The notes beneath the pieces were generated by a model. The model saw nothing but the letters and a program-made list of their open reading frames with translations, ran no database searches and was not told the DNA's origin. Shown here piece after piece: positions 6,146-37,706 of a stretch of DNA of 37,870 bases. Origin of the DNA: Acetobacteraceae bacterium (lineage in GTDB: Bacteria > Pseudomonadota > Alphaproteobacteria > Acetobacterales > Acetobacteraceae); NCBI GenBank assembly GCA_025352995.1, contig JANXRN010000374.1:1-37870 (forward strand), read 5' to 3'. The translations under genes were made by a program, and so were the position numbers. Numbering within the stretch: position 1 is the stretch's first letter; each line of letters begins with the position of its first letter.

Positions 6146-6150
6146 CCGTC

Positions 6151-6231
6151 GTAGGGTGTCAGTCCCGCTTGGGACTGCACCAAATGGCGTCGTCAATCAT
6201 GGTGCAGTCCCGAGCGGGACTGACACCCTAC
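6151..6231. repeat. Nested palindromic element, 32-bp arms (GTAGGG-ended)
   Basis: Left arm 6151-6182 and right arm 6200-6231 are reverse complements with a single mismatch, around a 17-base loop. Each arm is itself a palindrome: CAGTCCC(4)GGGACTG occurs at 6160-6177 and again at 6205-6222. The DNA can therefore form one long hairpin or two smaller ones. It fills almost the whole gap between the convergent ends of the enoyl-CoA isomerase and methyltransferase genes. This is REP/BIME-like architecture, and a terminator role in both directions is plausible. Confidence 0.85.
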
Positions 6232-6241
6232 GCCTCAATCT

Positions 6242-15916: not shown

Positions 15917-16205
15917 CCTCTTCCCAAACAGGAGCGTGACGTGATCCCCAACCCACCAGGCTTGCCGCGCCGAACCGGCCTCCGCCGTATATGGTTGCGG
16001 GACAATATGTGTCGGAAGGTCTTCTTTTTGTGAACAAAAAGAAGCAAAAAAACTTCATCCATGTACTGCCTGCCCGTTGGGTTGGGTCCATCCGCAATGG
16101 CACGGTGGCCGTAACTAAGTGAGAAAAAGTTTTTTTGGTTCTTTTTGTTCACAAAAAGAACTGCTTGCCTTAAAAAATACTTGCCCTAGCCCGAAAGTTC
16201 CCACC
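15917..16205. other. Intergenic region before the amidohydrolase cluster
   Basis: The 289-base gap between the BASS gene and the first M20 gene. The first hundred bases show nothing I recognise. The rest is occupied by the first composite palindromic element (16015-16171). A promoter for the M20 cluster must lie here or inside the element; I could not place one. Confidence 0.6.
16015..16171. repeat. Composite palindromic element, copy 1
   Basis: Two near-identical palindromes in opposite orientation bound the element. CTTCTTTTTGT(GA)ACAAAAAGAAG at 16021-16044 is followed by CAAAAAAACTT. GTTCTTTTTGT(TC)ACAAAAAGAAC at 16138-16161 is preceded by AAGTTTTTTTG. The right border reads CTGCTTGCCTT. 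Between them lie about 80 bases, of which the right-hand part (ending AAGTGAGAAA) matches copy 2. Short false reading frames run through it and would extend the N-terminus of the downstream M20 gene. Confidence 0.85.
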
Positions 16206-21433: not shown

Positions 21434-22642
21434 ATGACCCTCGCCCACATCATCGCCGACATCGAACAAAATGATCACGCCGAACTAACCGCCATCCGCC
21501 AGGACATCCACGCCCATCCGGAAATGGGGCTCGAAGAAGTCCGCACCGCAGCTTTGGTCGCCGCCAAGCTGCGCGAATGGGGGATCGAGGTCACCGAAGG
21601 CGTCGGCGGCACCGGCGTCGTCGGCGTCGTGCGTGGCACCAAACCAGTCGGCGCCTCCAACCGCAGCAGCGCCATCGGCCTGCGCGCCGATATGGACGCC
21701 CTCGCCATCCCCGAACAAACCGGCGTGCCCTATGCCTCGCAAAACCCCGGCGTGATGCACGCCTGCGGACATGACGGGCACACCACCATGCTGCTCGGCG
21801 CGGCCAAATACCTCGCCCGCAATCGCGACTTCGCCGGCACCGTCAACCTGATCTTCCAACCCGCCGAAGAAGGCCGCGGTGGCGCCATCAACATGCTGAA
21901 CGACAAACTGTTCGACCGCTTCCCGTGCGACGCGATCTACGGCTTGCACAACATGCCGGGCTACGAACAAGGCAAATTCGCCATCCGCAAAGGCCCGATG
22001 ATGGCCGGCGGTGGCAAATGGCGCGTCGTCTTCCGCGGCACCGGCGGCCACGGCGGCGCCACCCCGCATAAAGCCACCGACGTCACCATCGCCCTCGCCC
22101 AATACATCATGGCGCTGCAAACCGTCGTCAGCCGCAATATCTCGCCGCTCGAAACCGCCGTCATCAGCGTCGGGTCCATCCACGGCGGCTCAAACCAATC
22201 CTCCAACGTCATGCCGTCCGAAGTCGAAGTCACCGGCACCATGCGGCACTACACCGCGGAAACCAAAGATATCATCGACCGCCGCATGTCCGACCTCGCC
22301 CACGCCATGGCCGCCGCCAACGGATGCACCGCAGAAATCGAAATGGGCTGGTTCGCCACCCCCCTGTCCAACGCATCCGACCAAACCGACATCGCCATCA
22401 GCGCCGCCCAAACCCTCGTCGGCAGCCCCAATGTCACCACCGCCAACCAAACCACCGGCGGTGAAGACTTCGCCTACATGATGGAACAACGCCCCGGAGC
22501 CTTCATCTTCCTCGGCAACGGCGTCACCTCCGCCGACGGCAAAATCCACCAAGTCCATACCCCACACTACAACTTCAACGACGCCATCATCCCCACCGGC
22601 GCTGCATACTGGGTCAGCGTCGTGCAGCAGGAGTTGGGGTAG
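21434..22642 (+). CDS. M20-family amidohydrolase, copy 3
   Basis: A 402-residue third paralogue, with the same ligands (HACGHDGHT, QPAEEGRGG, YGLHN, HQVHTPHYNFND). Its codons favour C at the third position more strongly than copies 1 and 2, so it is not a very recent copy. The stop codon TAG is contributed by the palindromic element that begins at 22639. AGGAG lies seven bases before the ATG. Position at the end of the run and the shared N-terminal half point to tandem duplication with later divergence of the lid region. Confidence 0.9.
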   Translation: MTLAHIIADIEQNDHAELTAIRQDIHAHPEMGLEEVRTAALVAAKLREWGIEVTEGVGGTGVVGVVRGTKPVGASNRSSAIGLRADMDALAIPEQTGVPYASQNPGVMHACGHDGHTTMLLGAAKYLARNRDFAGTVNLIFQPAEEGRGGAINMLNDKLFDRFPCDAIYGLHNMPGYEQGKFAIRKGPMMAGGGKWRVVFRGTGGHGGATPHKATDVTIALAQYIMALQTVVSRNISPLETAVISVGSIHGGSNQSSNVMPSEVEVTGTMRHYTAETKDIIDRRMSDLAHAMAAANGCTAEIEMGWFATPLSNASDQTDIAISAAQTLVGSPNVTTANQTTGGEDFAYMMEQRPGAFIFLGNGVTSADGKIHQVHTPHYNFNDAIIPTGAAYWVSVVQQELG

Positions 22643-22820
22643 GGTTCGGAAGGCAAGCAAGCAAGGCGCTGGGGCGCTGCCCCCTCGACCCCCGCCGGGG
22701 TGGGACCCCGGACCCCTATCCTAAGAAAGCGACTTACCCTTAAAGGGTTTGGCGTCCAGGGACCTTCCCTGGCGGGGTCTGGGGCAGCGCCCCAGCGCTT
22801 GCTTGCCTTCCGAACCCTAC
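22639..22820. repeat. Large imperfect inverted repeat with GTAGGG ends
   Basis: Left arm from GTAGGGTTCGGAAGGCAAGC (22639) pairs with the right arm ending GCTTGCCTTCCGAACCCTAC (22820). The outer 40 bases match except for a 5-base insertion in the left arm. Pairing continues inward through CGCTGCCCC and GACCCC/GGGGTC segments, giving arms of about 75 bases. Internal palindromes include CCAGGGA(2)TCCCTGG at about 22756-22772 and ACCCTTAAAGGGT near 22737-22749. It fills the gap between the convergent amidohydrolase copy 3 and metF genes and provides the TAG stop of each. Confidence 0.85.
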
Positions 22821-23755
22821 CCAACACCCGCAGCCCGAGGCCGGACCCCAAGGATGTGGGCGATGGCGTTGGTTAGGTCGGGTCGGTTGAGGGTATAGAA
22901 GTGGAATTCGTCGATGCCGTTGGCTTGCAGTTGGCGGACTTGTTCGGCGGCGACGACGGCGGCGATCATGCGGCGGATTTCGACGTCATCTTCGACGCCG
23001 TCGAAGTATGCGCCGAGCCAGGCGGGGACATGGACGCCGGAGGTCGCGGAGAATTTAACGATCTGGGTGTAGTTGGACACGGGCATGATGCCGGGGACGA
23101 TGGGGGCGGTTATGCCGGCGGCGAGTGCGAGGTCGAGGAAGCGGAGGAAGGTTGCGTTATCGAAGAAGTAGTTGGTGATGGCGCGGGTGGCACCGGCGTC
23201 GAGTTTGCGTTTGAGCACTTCGAGGTCGGCGAGCGGGCTTGCAGCGGTTGGGTGGATTTCCGGGTAGGCGGCGACGGAGATTTCGAAGGGGGCCACTTTA
23301 GCCAGGCCGGCGACGAGGTCGGACGCGTAGGCGTAGCCTTGTGGGTGGGGGATATAGGGTCCGCCGCCGGGGACATCACCGCGGAGGGCGACGATGTGGC
23401 GGATGCCGGCGTCCCAGTAGGCGCGCGCGATGTCGTCGATTTCCCCCCGCGAAGCGCCCACGCAGGTAAGGTGCGCGGCCGGGGTAAGGGTTGTTTCGGT
23501 GACCATTCGGGCGACGGTTGCGTGGGTGCGGGCTTGCGTACTGCCGCCCGCGCCATAGGTAACGGACGCGAAGCGCGGGGCAAGCGGTTCAAGTTTGCGG
23601 ATGCAGGCCCAGAGCTGGGTTTCCAGCGCGTCGGTGCGTGGCGGGAAGAATTCGAACGACAGTTTCGGCGGCGCCTGATCGTGGGCGCGATCGGGCAGCC
23701 GATCGAAGCGTGGGCCGGACAACCAGCGGGCGAGTGTGGGGGATGACGCGTTCAT
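22817..23755 (-). CDS. metF: 5,10-methylenetetrahydrofolate reductase
   Basis: A 312-residue FAD enzyme that reduces methylene-THF to methyl-THF for methionine synthesis. Landmarks: LSFEFFPPRT, whose Glu35 matches the catalytic glutamate of E. coli MetF; FASVTYGAGGST; HLTCVGASR; ALRGD; and NYFFDNATFLRFLD. The last residues (FHFYTLNRPDLTNAIAHILG) are the usual end, and the following VRPRAAGVG tail leads to a TAG that belongs to the palindromic element. It is divergent from mlaA across 181 bases. I saw no convincing SAM or SAH riboswitch in front of it. Confidence 0.94.
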   Translation of the reverse strand: MNASSPTLARWLSGPRFDRLPDRAHDQAPPKLSFEFFPPRTDALETQLWACIRKLEPLAPRFASVTYGAGGSTQARTHATVARMVTETTLTPAAHLTCVGASRGEIDDIARAYWDAGIRHIVALRGDVPGGGPYIPHPQGYAYASDLVAGLAKVAPFEISVAAYPEIHPTAASPLADLEVLKRKLDAGATRAITNYFFDNATFLRFLDLALAAGITAPIVPGIMPVSNYTQIVKFSATSGVHVPAWLGAYFDGVEDDVEIRRMIAAVVAAEQVRQLQANGIDEFHFYTLNRPDLTNAIAHILGVRPRAAGVG

Positions 23756-23936
23756 TGCGCGATATTGGCGATCTTGCGGCCGCGCGCAAGTCTCCCGGCC
23801 GGCGGGTTGGCAGGTAAATTTATTGCAATCTGCCCGCCACTGGAAATTCGGGCGTAAACGTGGTCAGTTCGCTACGATTTCGCCATATGCTTATGCCATT
23901 CATCACCCATGACAGGGTGTATTTCAGAGGCTTTCG
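23756..23936. promoter_or_regulatory. Divergent intergenic region metF / mlaA
   Basis: The 181-base gap must hold promoters for both genes. A small hairpin CACCC(6)GGGTG is seen near 23905-23920, shortly before the mlaA start, and GGCAG/CTGCC boxes flank an AT-rich stretch near 23811-23837. No -35/-10 pair is convincing. Confidence 0.3.
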
Positions 23937-24716
23937 ATGCAGCGCATAGTTCAATCTTTCTCCCAGGCTGTGGTCCTGGTGGCGGCACTGGTGATGGCCG
24001 GGTGCGCGACGGCGCCGCCGGCGGATGATCCTGATGCGGTGGCGGAATTCAAGCAGACCAACGACCCGATTGAGCCGGCGAACCGGGTGGTTTATGCGGT
24101 AAATGACAAGATTGACCAGGTGGTTCTGCGTCCGGTGGCGGTTGGCTATAACTACGTTCTGGCGCCGGGGGTGCGGTCGCACATCCATAATTTGCTGGAT
24201 AATCTTGGCAATCCGGTCACCTTGATGAACGATATGCTGCAGGGCAAACCGCGGCGCGCGGGCGACACGCTGATGCGCCTGGTGCTGAACACCACGATCG
24301 GGGTTGGCGGGTTTTTCGATGTCGCGACCGGCTGGGGATGGCCCGCGCATGATGCCGATCTCGGGATGACATTCGCGGTATGGGGTGCGCCGGAGGGACC
24401 GTATTTGATGCTGCCGATCTTCGGCCCGTCCAATCCGCGTGATGGGATTGGGATGGTGGGTGACATGGCCGCGACGCCGACCGGCTATTTGCCGCATGGG
24501 TTGGAAAATACGGTTTTCGGTTACACCAAGACAGTTGTGGGCGCCGTCGATGCGCGGGCCGGGGTGGTTGACGATCTCGACAAGATCAAGGCCCAGGCGC
24601 TCGACCCGTATGCGACCATTCGCAGCCTGTGGCGCCAGCATCGGCAGTCGCAGATAGACGAGGCGAAGAAGCCCGAGATTCTAACGCAACCTTCGGCATG
24701 GGGCGGTTCAAAATGA
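23937..24716 (+). CDS. mlaA: MlaA (VacJ) outer-membrane lipoprotein
   Basis: A 259-residue lipoprotein. The signal peptide ends in the lipobox VMAGC with the lipidated Cys23. The MlaA core follows: DPIEPANRVVYAVND, then NLLDNLGNPVTLMNDMLQGK, NTTIGVGGFFDVAT and the proline/glycine-rich GPYLMLPIFGPSNPRDGIG. MlaA sits in the outer membrane as a ring and removes mislocalised phospholipids from the outer leaflet, handing them to MlaC. The mlaC gene overlaps its stop (ATGA), so the two are coupled. The inner-membrane MlaFEDB genes are not in the window. The C-terminal extension after about residue 225 is charged and not conserved. Confidence 0.92.
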   Translation: MQRIVQSFSQAVVLVAALVMAGCATAPPADDPDAVAEFKQTNDPIEPANRVVYAVNDKIDQVVLRPVAVGYNYVLAPGVRSHIHNLLDNLGNPVTLMNDMLQGKPRRAGDTLMRLVLNTTIGVGGFFDVATGWGWPAHDADLGMTFAVWGAPEGPYLMLPIFGPSNPRDGIGMVGDMAATPTGYLPHGLENTVFGYTKTVVGAVDARAGVVDDLDKIKAQALDPYATIRSLWRQHRQSQIDEAKKPEILTQPSAWGGSK

Positions 24717-25336
24717 CAATCCAAGGATCGCAGATGTTGGGACGTCGGGGGTTGGCGGGGTTTGGGTTGGCGATTGGCCTATTGGCGCCGTTTGCGGCAT
24801 GGGCCGACGATACCGACCAGGCGGAGAAATTCGTCGATAAATTGCTGAAGGATTTGTCCGCGGTTGTGAATGGCGGCAAGCCGGTTGATGCCCAGAAGGC
24901 GGCGATGCGGCAGATCGTGTTTGAGGCCGTTGATATTGATGGGGTGGCGCGGTTCTGCCTCGGGCGATTCTGGCGCACCGCTACGCCGCAGCAGCAGAAA
25001 GACTACACCGAGATTTTCCGCAACGTGATGGTATCGAACATCACCGGCAAGGTTGGTGAATACCAAGGCGTTTCATTCGCCCTGGGCAAGGGTCAGGCCC
25101 GGGTGGAGGAAATCTCGGTGGCCAGCACGGTCAACCGGCCGGGCAATGCGCCGAACAAGGTGGATTGGCTGGTGGCCAATGTGGGCGGCAAGCCGAGAGT
25201 GATTGACGTGGTGGCCGAGGGCACCAGCCTTCGCCTGACCCAGCGAAACGATTACAGCGCGTTCCTGCAGCGCAACAATAACGATGTTCAGGCGTTGATC
25301 GATGCGCTGAAGAAGCAGGCCGTTGCTGCCAATTAA
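24713..25336 (+). CDS. mlaC: MlaC/Ttg2D-family periplasmic lipid carrier (HpnM-like)
   Basis: A 207-residue secreted protein. The signal peptide (residues 1-31, with a twin arginine at about 11-12 and cleavage near AWA) is followed by the MlaC fold: VDIDGVARFCLGRFWRTATP, QQQKDYTEIFRNVM, and RNDYSAFLQRNNNDVQALIDAL. MlaC ferries phospholipids between MlaA and the inner-membrane complex. A close relative, HpnM, is tied to hopanoid loci; hpnH lies 1.6 kb downstream, so a hopanoid-carrying role is possible. The ATG at 24713 overlaps the mlaA stop, and an internal ATG seven codons later could also serve. Its 3' end overlaps the next gene by about 14 bases. Confidence 0.9.
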   Translation: MTIQGSQMLGRRGLAGFGLAIGLLAPFAAWADDTDQAEKFVDKLLKDLSAVVNGGKPVDAQKAAMRQIVFEAVDIDGVARFCLGRFWRTATPQQQKDYTEIFRNVMVSNITGKVGEYQGVSFALGKGQARVEEISVASTVNRPGNAPNKVDWLVANVGGKPRVIDVVAEGTSLRLTQRNDYSAFLQRNNNDVQALIDALKKQAVAAN

Positions 25337-26231
25337 CGCGTTGCGGGTTCAGACCGCGACGCTCGATATCGCCTATTGCGCATTTGGCCCGGAGGCCGGG
25401 CCGGCGGTGGTTCTGCTACATGGGTTTCCCGATGATATAGGGGCCTATGCGACGGTCGCCCCGGCGTTGGCGGCTGATGGGTACCTTGTGTTGGTGCCCT
25501 GGTTACGTGGCTATGGCCCGACCCGGTTTCGGTCGGCCACGACCCCGCGATCGGGCGAACAGGCGGCACTAGGTGCCGATTTGCGCGATTTTCTGACGGC
25601 CCTTGGCATCGATCGCGCAATTCTTGGGGGCTATGATTGGGGTGGCCGCGCCGCGTGCGTCGTGGCGGCCTTGTGGCCGGACCGGGTGCGCGGGCTGGTA
25701 ACGATCGGCGGCTACAATATCCAGCATATCGCGTCCGCCCGGACGCCCCTGCCGGCGGAGGATGAGGCACGGCTGTGGTACCAATGGTATTTCCAGACCG
25801 CCCGCGGTCGGGCCGGACTGGAAGCTGATCGTGCCGGGATAGCGCGGCTATTATGGCGCCTGTGGTCGCCGAACTGGGCATTTGATGACGCGACTTTCGC
25901 CCGCGCGGCAGCAAGCTTCGACAATCCCGATTTCGTGGATGTGGTGATCCATTCCTACCGCCACCGCCATCAGAATGCGCCCGGCGATCCGGCTTTGGCC
26001 GATATCGAGGCAGCCTTGGCGCGGCAACCGGCGATTTCGGTGCCGACAATCGCGCTAGAGGGGGCGGCGGACGGGGTGCGCACCCCGGACCTTGCCGACC
26101 CGGCACGACATCGATTTACCGGCCCCTATCGGCGGGCGATTCTACCGACCGTCGGTCATTTCCTGCCGCATGAGGCACCTGGGGCTGTGATCGCGGCGGT
26201 GCGCGAACTTGGTCAGGCGCCGAACACGTAG
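25323..26231 (+). CDS. Alpha/beta hydrolase (haloalkane dehalogenase / epoxide hydrolase-like)
   Basis: A 302-residue alpha/beta hydrolase. The oxyanion-hole motif HGFPDD begins at residue 33. The nucleophile elbow is GGYDWGG with Asp105, so it belongs to the aspartate-nucleophile group (epoxide hydrolases, haloalkane dehalogenases) rather than serine esterases. An aspartate in GAADGV and the histidine in VGHFLPHEAP complete the triad. The start is uncertain: TTG at 25323 overlaps mlaC by 14 bases and another TTG is at 25341; neither has a good Shine-Dalgarno sequence. It is probably co-transcribed with mlaAC. Its 3' end overlaps the convergent tetR-type gene by 19 bases. Confidence 0.83.
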   Translation: MLPINALRVQTATLDIAYCAFGPEAGPAVVLLHGFPDDIGAYATVAPALAADGYLVLVPWLRGYGPTRFRSATTPRSGEQAALGADLRDFLTALGIDRAILGGYDWGGRAACVVAALWPDRVRGLVTIGGYNIQHIASARTPLPAEDEARLWYQWYFQTARGRAGLEADRAGIARLLWRLWSPNWAFDDATFARAAASFDNPDFVDVVIHSYRHRHQNAPGDPALADIEAALARQPAISVPTIALEGAADGVRTPDLADPARHRFTGPYRRAILPTVGHFLPHEAPGAVIAAVRELGQAPNT

Positions 26232-26869
26232 CCGGCGAGGAGACGCTTAGCCTCCGCCAGGACCTGTGCCCGCGCCGCCAGATCGGGCTGATCGAAAGCG
26301 AAGGACAGCAGCCGGTCCCCCACTTCAGTGGCGATCCGTAACCGCAAGGTGAAATCGTCGCTTGGCGTCAGATCGAACGCTTCGACCAGGAATTCCTTGA
26401 CCATTTCGGCGACCTGCCCGGACGTCGCCTCGGCGTCGCGGGTTGGGCGGCTGACGGCGCGGCCGGGCAAACCGGTTGCCGCACCATAGGCGACGGTGCG
26501 GAAGTCCGGGTTGATGTCGAGATAGGCAACGAATTCATCGACCACCAGACCGAGAAACGCGCCCGGATCGGCGGGAAAGGCCGTCATCAGCCGCAGACCC
26601 AGGGTTTCCTGGAATAATTCCATATGCCGCAAGGCTATCGCATCGACGATCGCCTGCTTGTCAGGGAAAAACCGATAAAGCGCGCCGATGGAAAGCCCGG
26701 CTTCCCCCGCGATGCCCGCCGTGGTCAGCGCTTCGACCGTCACGCCACGGGCGAGCAACGCGGACGCCGCCGTCAGCACGCGCTGCACGGTTTCCTGGCT
26801 GCGGCCCTGCACCGGCGCGCGCCGCCCGCGGGCGCTGTCTTGAACGATATCGTCACTCATGAACCGCAT
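26213..26869 (-). CDS. TetR-family transcriptional regulator
   Basis: A 218-residue repressor. The N-terminal TetR HTH reads QRVLTAASALLARGV, then TTAGIAGEAGLSIGALYRFF and PDKQAIVDAI (about residues 28-78). The remaining helices form the ligand domain, which is not conserved enough to name an effector. The ATG at 26869 and that at 26860 are both possible starts. It is divergent from hpnH across about 100 bases that contain an 11-bp inverted repeat, so it may control hpnH and itself. Its 3' end overlaps the convergent hydrolase gene. Confidence 0.88.
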   Translation of the reverse strand: MRFMSDDIVQDSARGRRAPVQGRSQETVQRVLTAASALLARGVTVEALTTAGIAGEAGLSIGALYRFFPDKQAIVDAIALRHMELFQETLGLRLMTAFPADPGAFLGLVVDEFVAYLDINPDFRTVAYGAATGLPGRAVSRPTRDAEATSGQVAEMVKEFLVEAFDLTPSDDFTLRLRIATEVGDRLLSFAFDQPDLAARAQVLAEAKRLLAGYVFGA

Positions 26870-26920
26870 GTAACCCCGATCCGGCAGCGATACCAGTTGA
26901 CATTGGCATGGCCGATAGCC

Positions 26921-26952
26921 AAAAAGCGAACGCGACGTCCTGTTCGCGTTTT
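26921..26952. promoter_or_regulatory. Inverted repeat upstream of hpnH (operator or attenuator)
   Basis: AAAAAGCGAAC (26921-26931) and GTTCGCGTTTT (26942-26952) pair at 10 of 11 positions around a 10-base spacer. A TTGACA hexamer lies just upstream at 26897-26902, though no good -10 follows it. The site ends 16 bases before the hpnH ATG. It could be the operator of the divergent TetR regulator. As RNA, the GC stem followed by TTTT resembles an intrinsic terminator, which would make it an attenuator. Confidence 0.5.
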
Positions 26953-26968
26953 ATCTGGAGACTGCTCG

Positions 26969-28132
26969 ATGGGTATCCCGCTGCACCAGGCCGTTCGCGT
27001 TGGCGCCTATGTCGTCAAACAGCATCTGATCGGCCGCAAGCGCTACCCGTTGGTGCTGATGCTGGAGCCGTTGTTTCGCTGCAATCTGGCGTGCTCGGGC
27101 TGTGGCAAGATCGACTATCCTGCGGAAATCCTCAATCAACGCCTGTCGGTGGCGGAATGCCTGCAAGCGGTGGACGAATGCGGCGCGCCGGTCGTGGTGA
27201 TCGCCGGCGGGGAGCCGCTGCTGCACAAAGAAATCGATGAGGTTGTGCGCGGCATCATTGCCCGCAAGAAATACGTCATCGTCTGCACCAACGCGCTGCT
27301 GCTGGAAAAGAAGATGGAATTGTTCAAGCCGAACAAATTCTTCTCCTGGTCGGTGCATCTTGATGGCGACGAGGGCGACCATGACCGGTCAGTTTGCCAG
27401 GACGGGGTTTACGATCGCTGCGTGTCGGCGATTGCCATGGCCAAGGCCGCCGGCTTTCGCACCATTATCAACGCGACCTTGTTCAACAATGCGGACGCCG
27501 AACGCACGGCGAATTTCTTTGATGACGTGATGGAAATGGGCATTGACGGCATCAGCGTGTCGCCCGGTTACGCCTATGAACGCGCGCCGGATCAGCAGCA
27601 TTTCCTCAACCGCCTGGCGACCAAGGAATTGTTCCGCAACATCTTCGCGCGCGGCAAAGCCAAGCAGGCGGCCAATCCGAAGCACAAGAAATGGCAGTTC
27701 AACCAGTCAAGCATGTTCCTTGACTTCCTGGCCGGCAATCAGACCTTTCATTGCACGCCGTGGGGCAACCCGACGCGCAATTATTTCGGCTGGCAACGGC
27801 CGTGTTATTTGCTCGGCGAAGGCTATGCGTCATCCTTCAAGGAGTTAATGGAAACCACTGAGTGGGACAAATACGGCGTCGGCAACTATGAAAAATGCGC
27901 CGACTGCATGGTCCATTCCGGTTTCGAAGCAACGGCCGTCGCCGCATCCGTCAGCAATCCGTTCAAGGCGCTGAAGGTTGAATTGTCTGGCATTCGCACC
28001 GATGGCGACTTCGCCCCGGAAATCCCGCTCGATCGCCAGCGCCCGGCCGAATACAGCTTCAGCCGCCACGTCCAGCAGGCGATGGACAAAATCAAGCACA
28101 AGAAGCCCGATCTGGTTGACGCTGGCGAATAA
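26969..28132 (+). CDS. hpnH: Adenosyl-hopene transferase, radical SAM
   Basis: A 387-residue radical SAM enzyme. The iron-sulfur cluster motif is CNLACSGC with Cys38, Cys42 and Cys45 (CX3CX2C), followed by the SAM-binding GGEPLL near residue 83. The C-terminal half has the HpnH-typical FLAGNQTFHCTPWGNPTRNYFGWQ region and a late CADC pair. HpnH joins a 5'-deoxyadenosyl group to diploptene, the first step of extended-hopanoid side-chain synthesis. I take the ATG at 26969 because GGAG lies eight bases upstream and MGIPLHQAVRVGAYV is the normal family start. It is preceded by an inverted repeat and a divergent TetR gene. Its last 41 bases overlap the 3' end of flhG on the other strand. No other hpn gene is in the window. 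Confidence 0.94.
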   Translation: MGIPLHQAVRVGAYVVKQHLIGRKRYPLVLMLEPLFRCNLACSGCGKIDYPAEILNQRLSVAECLQAVDECGAPVVVIAGGEPLLHKEIDEVVRGIIARKKYVIVCTNALLLEKKMELFKPNKFFSWSVHLDGDEGDHDRSVCQDGVYDRCVSAIAMAKAAGFRTIINATLFNNADAERTANFFDDVMEMGIDGISVSPGYAYERAPDQQHFLNRLATKELFRNIFARGKAKQAANPKHKKWQFNQSSMFLDFLAGNQTFHCTPWGNPTRNYFGWQRPCYLLGEGYASSFKELMETTEWDKYGVGNYEKCADCMVHSGFEATAVAASVSNPFKALKVELSGIRTDGDFAPEIPLDRQRPAEYSFSRHVQQAMDKIKHKKPDLVDAGE

Positions 28133-29735: not shown

Positions 29736-29875
29736 AGGAAGCAGTTCTTTTTGTGAACAAAAAGAACCAAAAAAACTTTTTGACACTGGCGCACCACTGC
29801 CGGTGCGCACTCCGAACCAAAGTGAGAAAGTTTTTTTGCTTCTTTTTGTTCACAAAAAGAAGTCTTCCTTGCCTT
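29736..29875. repeat. Composite palindromic element, copy 2
   Basis: Outer palindromes GTTCTTTTTGT(GA)ACAAAAAGAAC at 29744-29767 and CTTCTTTTTGT(TC)ACAAAAAGAAG at 29839-29862 are in opposite orientation, each flanked inwardly by an A7/T7 tract. The core hairpin GCGCACCACTGCCGGTGCGC lies at 29789-29808. The borders read AGGAAGCAG and TCTTCCTTGCCTT. The element fills most of the flhA-flhF gap (29735-29895) and its left end is one base from the flhF ATG. Confidence 0.88.
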
Positions 29876-37584: not shown

Positions 37585-37706
37585 GGAAGACAGCCGAAGT
37601 AAGGTCTTCTTTGTTTGAAAACAAAAAAGCAAAAAAACTTTCCAACTTGGCGCCGGGTGCGCACCGGCAGTGGTGCGCATTGGTCACAAAAAGACCAGCC
37701 TTCCTT
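37585..37706. repeat. Composite palindromic element, copy 3 (degenerate)
   Basis: It shares the pattern AAGGTCTTCTTTGTTTG, then AAAACAAAAAAGCAAAAAAACTT, with copies 1 and 2. It carries the core hairpin GCGCACCGGCAGTGGTGCGC at 37659-37678, the exact reverse complement of the copy 2 core. The right outer palindrome has decayed to TGGTC(7)GACCA at 37681-37697. The element exactly fills the space between the ettA stop codon (37707-37709) and the GNAT start codon (37581-37583). Confidence 0.8.

Follow-up and report, generated by a model that had tools for sequence, protein, structure and literature searches.

We found that the inverted repeat (quasi-palindrome) of about 180 bases that makes up the entire stop-to-stop gap between a convergent amidohydrolase gene and metF in a 37,870-nucleotide stretch of Acetobacteraceae DNA (the window) belongs, as judged from sequence comparison, to a modular family of quasi-palindromic intergenic repeats resident in this Acetobacteraceae genus, of which it is a shortened copy. 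The best explanation of the family, in which we place moderate confidence, is that a resident quasi-palindrome has been homogenized and inverted by template switching and has a putative RNA-hairpin role at gene ends. The features of the locus are collected in Table 1.

Table 1. Features at the junction between the amidohydrolase gene and metF (window coordinates)
Feature	Position	Strand	Basis or remark
Amidohydrolase-family gene, M20 type, third copy in the window	21434-22642	+	TIGR01891, 343 bits
Left outer arm	22637-22662	+	26 nt; contains the amidohydrolase stop 22640-22642; complementary to 22797-22822
Left GC-rich hairpin module	22663-22729	+	Matches the left module of other copies
Position of the central palindrome of full-length copies, absent from the window copy	22730-22739	+	Compared with L012 and other copies; sequence of 22720-22747
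Right GC-rich hairpin module	22740-22796	+	Matches the right module of other copies
Right outer arm	22797-22822	+	26 nt; contains the metF stop 22817-22819 (minus strand)
metF, methylenetetrahydrofolate reductase	22817-23755	-	TIGR00676, 313.6 bits, above its cut-off

Build of the element and its repeat family

The two outer arms are exact reverse complements over 26 bp (100%). The RNA fold predicted for 22632-22827 reached -152.1 kcal/mol, compared with a mean of -87.7 for shuffled sequences (z -14.5; 0 of 200 shuffles equally stable), and that of the opposite strand reached -153.1 kcal/mol (z -13.2). Perfect arms and a stable fold bear out the inverted repeat that an earlier note on this DNA had described between the two gene ends. 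Its estimate of a stem of about 75 bp was fair, the predicted fold having 79 pairs in total in a stem interrupted by bulges and mismatches, and its reading of GGG TAG GGT for both genes at the termini of the element was correct, with both TAGs inside the arms. The border motif that it had seen as common to this element and the composite elements of the window is visible by eye as an AAGN-type border, also seen by eye on the composite, AT-rich elements close to 16014-16166 and 29737-29862. AT-rich inverted repeats of the TTCTTTTTGTGAACAAAAAGAA type with AAGN-like borders lie at these two places and at 37599-37648; they form another repeat family, whose edges are those of the GC-rich family. A separate inverted repeat of 33 nt, 97% complementary and with a 17-nt loop, was found at 6150-6232. 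An Rfam search of the window gave no match at the gathering threshold, and a scan of 22400-23100 for terminators with a T run found none inside the element, its one site lying within the amidohydrolase gene (shuffles give 0.8).

Other copies are abundant in the same draft genome, where scoring 40 of 51 candidates yielded at least 68 pieces, spread over 32 contigs, that the window element matches. The modular repeat family that the earlier note had suspected is supported. Full-length copies consist of outer AAGN arms, the left GC-rich module, the central palindrome and the right GC-rich module. Shorter copies that, like that of the window, have no central palindrome are present elsewhere too, and the window copy appears to have lost it. 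The full-length relative L015 found matches in all five genomes of the genus. Matches were also obtained in at least 33 of 80 genomes drawn from the family Acetobacteraceae, the own genome included and with up to 10 candidates scored per genome; outside the own genome they are short, so that kinship of the repeat beyond the genus is suggested only. A search of the open-licence literature found no named palindromic repeat family of Acetobacteraceae.

Matched arms, inverted interiors and their origin

Outer arms match each other within a copy far better than between copies. The arm match was 16.8 within a copy and 8.3 between different copies, a difference reached in 0 of 20000 permutations (29 copies, with orthologous sites counted separately). 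This test was made both on 29 copies and, with L010 added, on 30; L169 was skipped because its pattern was not found, L171 and L180 were retained with badly placed arms, and L152 was retained with paralogous flanks. The last of these (G001:C207) is an element lying between two convergent paralogous gene ends that are identical at 264 of 287 positions (92%). We also compared one representative for each of 19 sites, hand-chosen from 30 parsed copies (the left flank of L146 being just 54 nt). The innermost 10 nt had no excess identity (1965 of 4000 permutations), and beyond these 10 nt the identities were 0.74, 0.70, 0.70, 0.68, 0.64, 0.62 and 0.59, against 0.60 falling to about 0.55. At 20-50 nt the values of 0.70, 0.70 and 0.68 stood against 0.54-0.56. 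None of 4000 permutations reached the observed identity in any interval out to 50 nt, whereas 13, 30 and 130 did so in the intervals that follow. At 75-90 nt the identity was 0.59 against 0.55, and the excess thus fades over tens of nucleotides into the neighboring genes. Two-sided changes were found in 18 of 60 consensus pairs, mainly in the central stem.

Element-side genes are G-rich over their final 24 nt, with a G content of 0.42 compared with 0.33 (24 versus 75 ends, P 7e-5), where the 24 ends are a hand-picked subset, one per gene, of 42 element-side ends. Terminal codons are not clearly rarer at these 42 ends than at 88 control ends: the difference was not significant when the final 3 or 5 codons were counted (P 0.25 and 0.20) and appeared only with the final 8 or 12 (P 0.015 and 0.036); this test was made without L010, L142 and L152, with L171R counted twice and orthologues taken separately. 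In the window, the amidohydrolase gene meets the element with GAG TTG GGG TAG. These three terminal codons are uncommon in the gene itself (2 of 21 Glu, 3 of 22 Leu and 5 of 46 Gly codons), and congeners have synonymous GAA, CTC or CTG, and GGA or GGC at the matching positions.

Arm matching was also compared between species. The within-species match exceeded the cross-species match at 7 of 11 sites, three sites being negative and one zero, with a mean difference of 0.9; some of these pairs combine flanks that lie on different contigs of a genome, and at site S14 the second pair mixes one G001 flank with one G000 flank. Because this within-species excess is only slight, most of the arm matching would predate the species or have existed at the outset; the process may be largely an old one, or the sites may have begun as quasi-palindromes. 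The amidohydrolase end of the window scores 14.0 with the metF end of the element-free record L041, which equals the 14.0 obtained with its true partner.

The interior of the element differs in orientation between copies at the same site. Among pairs of copies with orthologous flanks, the interior was flipped in 35 and the same in 34, in comparisons between draft assemblies of different species. Sites were identified by their flanks across G000, G001, G003 and G004 in a set of 65 whole or partial copies that excluded L010, L039, L176-L179 and L181, and the paralogous L143/L152 cluster was counted as flipped. Of 29 gene-end clusters present in at least two genomes, 19 were found beside both modules, and when the 29 were hand-merged into 16 sites and two ambiguous ones were set aside, 9 of the 14 unambiguous sites were flipped. 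Reads probably span a flank together with its outer module, as the two lie in one short stretch. The same module occurred on both flanks in three cases, namely L013/L024 and L157/L165, at contig ends, and L152 with its paralogous flanks.

Template switching between imperfect inverted repeats is described as homogenizing the arms and inverting the spacers (PMC8604942). We propose this process because a single mechanism would then cover the copy-specific matched arms, the flips, the two-sided stem changes and the arms that creep up to and past the stops. Against it stand the slight within-species excess of arm matching, the equal score of the L041 metF end, and terminal codons that are not clearly rarer beside elements. 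DNA polymerase switching templates inside the palindrome would copy one arm from the other, homogenizing the arms and inverting the interior of the element. It would also extend the matching outwards until coding constraint is met, with arms that reach and slightly pass the stop codons. More tentatively, transcription from either side is predicted to give both mRNAs a very stable 3'-terminal hairpin, and this hairpin may explain why elements are retained at gene ends; selection for a hairpin there is compatible with template switching. A broader version, which we regard as doubtful, is that the palindromes of the genus rewrite neighboring 3' gene ends, template switching copying one end, inverted, towards its convergent neighbor, so that gene ends across the genus would be imprinted, stops reached within coding constraint, and interiors flipped at fixed sites.

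It is rather unlikely that the arms match solely through selection for an RNA hairpin, acting as a two-way terminator or as a protector of mRNA 3' ends and with mutation bias uninvolved. Such selection would fit the very stable fold of both strands and the two-sided stem changes, and inverted repeats of E. coli are reported to be enriched behind stop codons (PMC6060812). It would also fit the closeness of stops to the core. Elements adjoin stops: of the 57 gene ends that face one, 52 have their stop 5-39 nt away from the GC core (75 flank sides scored, the search starting 75 nt before the core, orthologues counted separately, and with weak ends included at the tRNA sites L026, L147 and L161 and the doubtful frames L142, L155, L163 and L020). 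However, the element has no terminator-like T run, the excess matching extends into coding sequence, and hairpin selection by itself predicts no orientation flips.

Recombination between copies could account for the flips and is a rival explanation of them. As a source of both flips and arm changes, recombination or gene conversion between different copies, in place of template switching within a copy, has a low probability; near-identical modules common to the copies and the position of the element at a gene-order breakpoint speak for it, but it would not yield copy-specific arms matched to each other. Just as improbable, in our judgment, is a small mobile element of the MITE-like or REPIN-like kind, moved by a transposase and recently inserted in the window. 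The many copies and the relatives without an element behind either gene agree with mobility, but many sites are common to congeners. The copies also vary at their ends, with no constant terminal tag and no target-site duplication evident by eye beside them, and the L015 element had no match in 72,556 plasmid records. The sole transposase family searched, the REP transposase PF01797, gave no match in G000, G003 and G004 and one each in G001 and G002 (24.4 and 23.0 bits, at the cut-off of 23), all five being incomplete drafts.

The gene junction and its stop codons

Relatives have other neighbors behind both the amidohydrolase gene and metF. On contig C6 of the congener G004, the counterpart of window positions 1-22632 runs in descending order from 62056 to 28687, interrupted by gaps and paralogue cross-matches, and that of positions 22836-27597 runs in ascending order from 95237 to 99999, where the compared stretch ended; the two genes are 66 kb apart there. 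Because of these different neighbors and the separate mapping of the two halves of the window on C6, the junction appears to be new, by rearrangement or by misassembly. A single inversion was considered but is not borne out: the order fits, reverse up to the amidohydrolase stop and direct from metF, but the former neighbors are on two contigs. The CoA-transferase gene is on C319, where other DNA comes next, and oppF is on C345, where AT-rich repeats come next. The oppF-like gene, which lies 3' of metF in relatives, has its usual terminal residues in the own genome, with an AT-rich element immediately after it. At this locus (L189 2540-2840, G000:C345) the gene has no metF behind it, and its end abuts AT-rich palindromic repeats as a second breakpoint at repeats.

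Misassembly at the repeat is unlikely to have created the junction. The assembly is a draft of 558 contigs, the matches lie within 120 bp of an end on 22 of the 32 matching contigs, the two genes are 66 kb apart in G004, and both flanks of L010 (1-400, G000:C274), at a contig end, are reverse complements of each other at 87 of 88 positions, probably an assembly fold-back. Against this, a true junction is favored by copy-specific arms that match exactly: the window arms have 26 nt in common with each other, but the left one shares no more than 15 nt, and the right one no more than 12 nt, with the opposite arm of any of 26 other copies (a comparison of 27 copies, without L010, L152 and L171).

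The stop codons of both genes are, on comparison with relatives, ancestral, and the element adjoins them, because element-free relatives of both genes end in TAG at the same place. All four amidohydrolase orthologues of G001-G004 end in VVQQELG-TAG, and none has the window element there (by eye). Downstream of this stop, G003 apparently has the stop of the next gene with no gap, G004 a different hairpin and G001 a different repeat. In L121, L122 and L123, the site 3' of the amidohydrolase stop is a place where different palindromes settle. The nearest metF records are 95-96% identical to the window gene. Without the element, metF ends in GGG TAG in L040 and L041 and in GGA TAG in L054, so that all three records have Gly-TAG; L054 and G004 are probably one genome. 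The residues up to this glycine vary (RAAGVG in the window versus RAVSAG, RAASAG and RPLAAG), and in L040 and L054 the next open frame 3' of metF terminates within about 10 nt. An element of similar build lies directly 3' of the metF stop in seven more distant records among the 21 listed (L043, L044 and L046-L050; by eye).

The GTAG at the ends of the window element is thus the last codon joined to an ancestral stop. The earlier note had proposed that an insertion replaced both original stops with TAGs from its own ends, and this is hardly tenable: both stops do lie inside perfect arms, and GTAG-type REPs are reported as a frequent source of TAG stops (PMC3733652), but the comparison with element-free orthologues gave the outcome that the note itself had named as refuting, exactly for the amidohydrolase and in the last residue and stop for metF. 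The note had also suggested checking how often TAG ends a gene at such repeats, and TAG is not the rule beside other copies. The stops at the 57 gene ends facing an element were TGA in 23, TAG in 21 and TAA in 13 (orthologues counted separately), and with one end per gene, TAG was found at 12 of 24 ends versus 25 of 75 control ends, giving no significant preference (Fisher P 0.15). At one orthologous site in four congeners (L015, L142, L155 and L171), the stop of one flanking gene is TGA, TAA, TGA and TAG, respectively, and the preceding residue is always His.

Comparison with known repeats and meaning for the genus

BIME-type mosaic elements consist of several hairpin modules in variable combinations. 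The Acetobacteraceae element is a composite of hairpin modules as well, but its modules are not shown to be REPs, its outer arms are copy-specific, and its interior flips at fixed sites. Intrinsic (Rho-independent) terminators share with it a stable GC-rich hairpin just 3' of stops, whereas the Acetobacteraceae element is far longer and no T run was found in it. MITE-like elements have constant terminal inverted repeats and a target-site duplication; the terminal arms of the present copies vary, and no duplication was evident beside them by eye.

GTAG-type REPs are described as often providing TAG stops and as lying near gene 3' ends between convergent frames (PMC3733652), and they are the closest precedent for the idea that a repeat supplies stops. 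GTAG and CGTC REPs with RAYT transposases resemble the present element in being palindromic, intergenic, present in many copies and near gene 3' ends, with termini that may touch TAG stops (PMC3733652). They are units of 20-40 bp with a constant tetranucleotide at one end, unlike the Acetobacteraceae element with its variable ends, and CGTC repeats are stated there to be missing in Acetobacteraceae (PMC3733652). These REPs have an associated RAYT (Y1_Tnp, PF01797); PF01797 was not found in three of the five draft genomes of the genus and gave a single match at the cut-off in each of the other two. Template-switched quasi-palindromes are alike in arm homogenization, spacer inversion and clustered changes reaching coding sequence, but were seen in genes of yeast strains (PMC8604942); here the process is proposed for a whole interspersed bacterial family and its neighboring gene ends.

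If the pattern holds on long-read genomes, this one repeat family would supply a large number of natural replicates on which template switching could be measured in wild bacteria, and it would also show how far template-switch editing reaches into coding ends. Complementary gene ends and orientation differences would then require neither selection nor transposition, and such elements could mark gene-order breakpoints.
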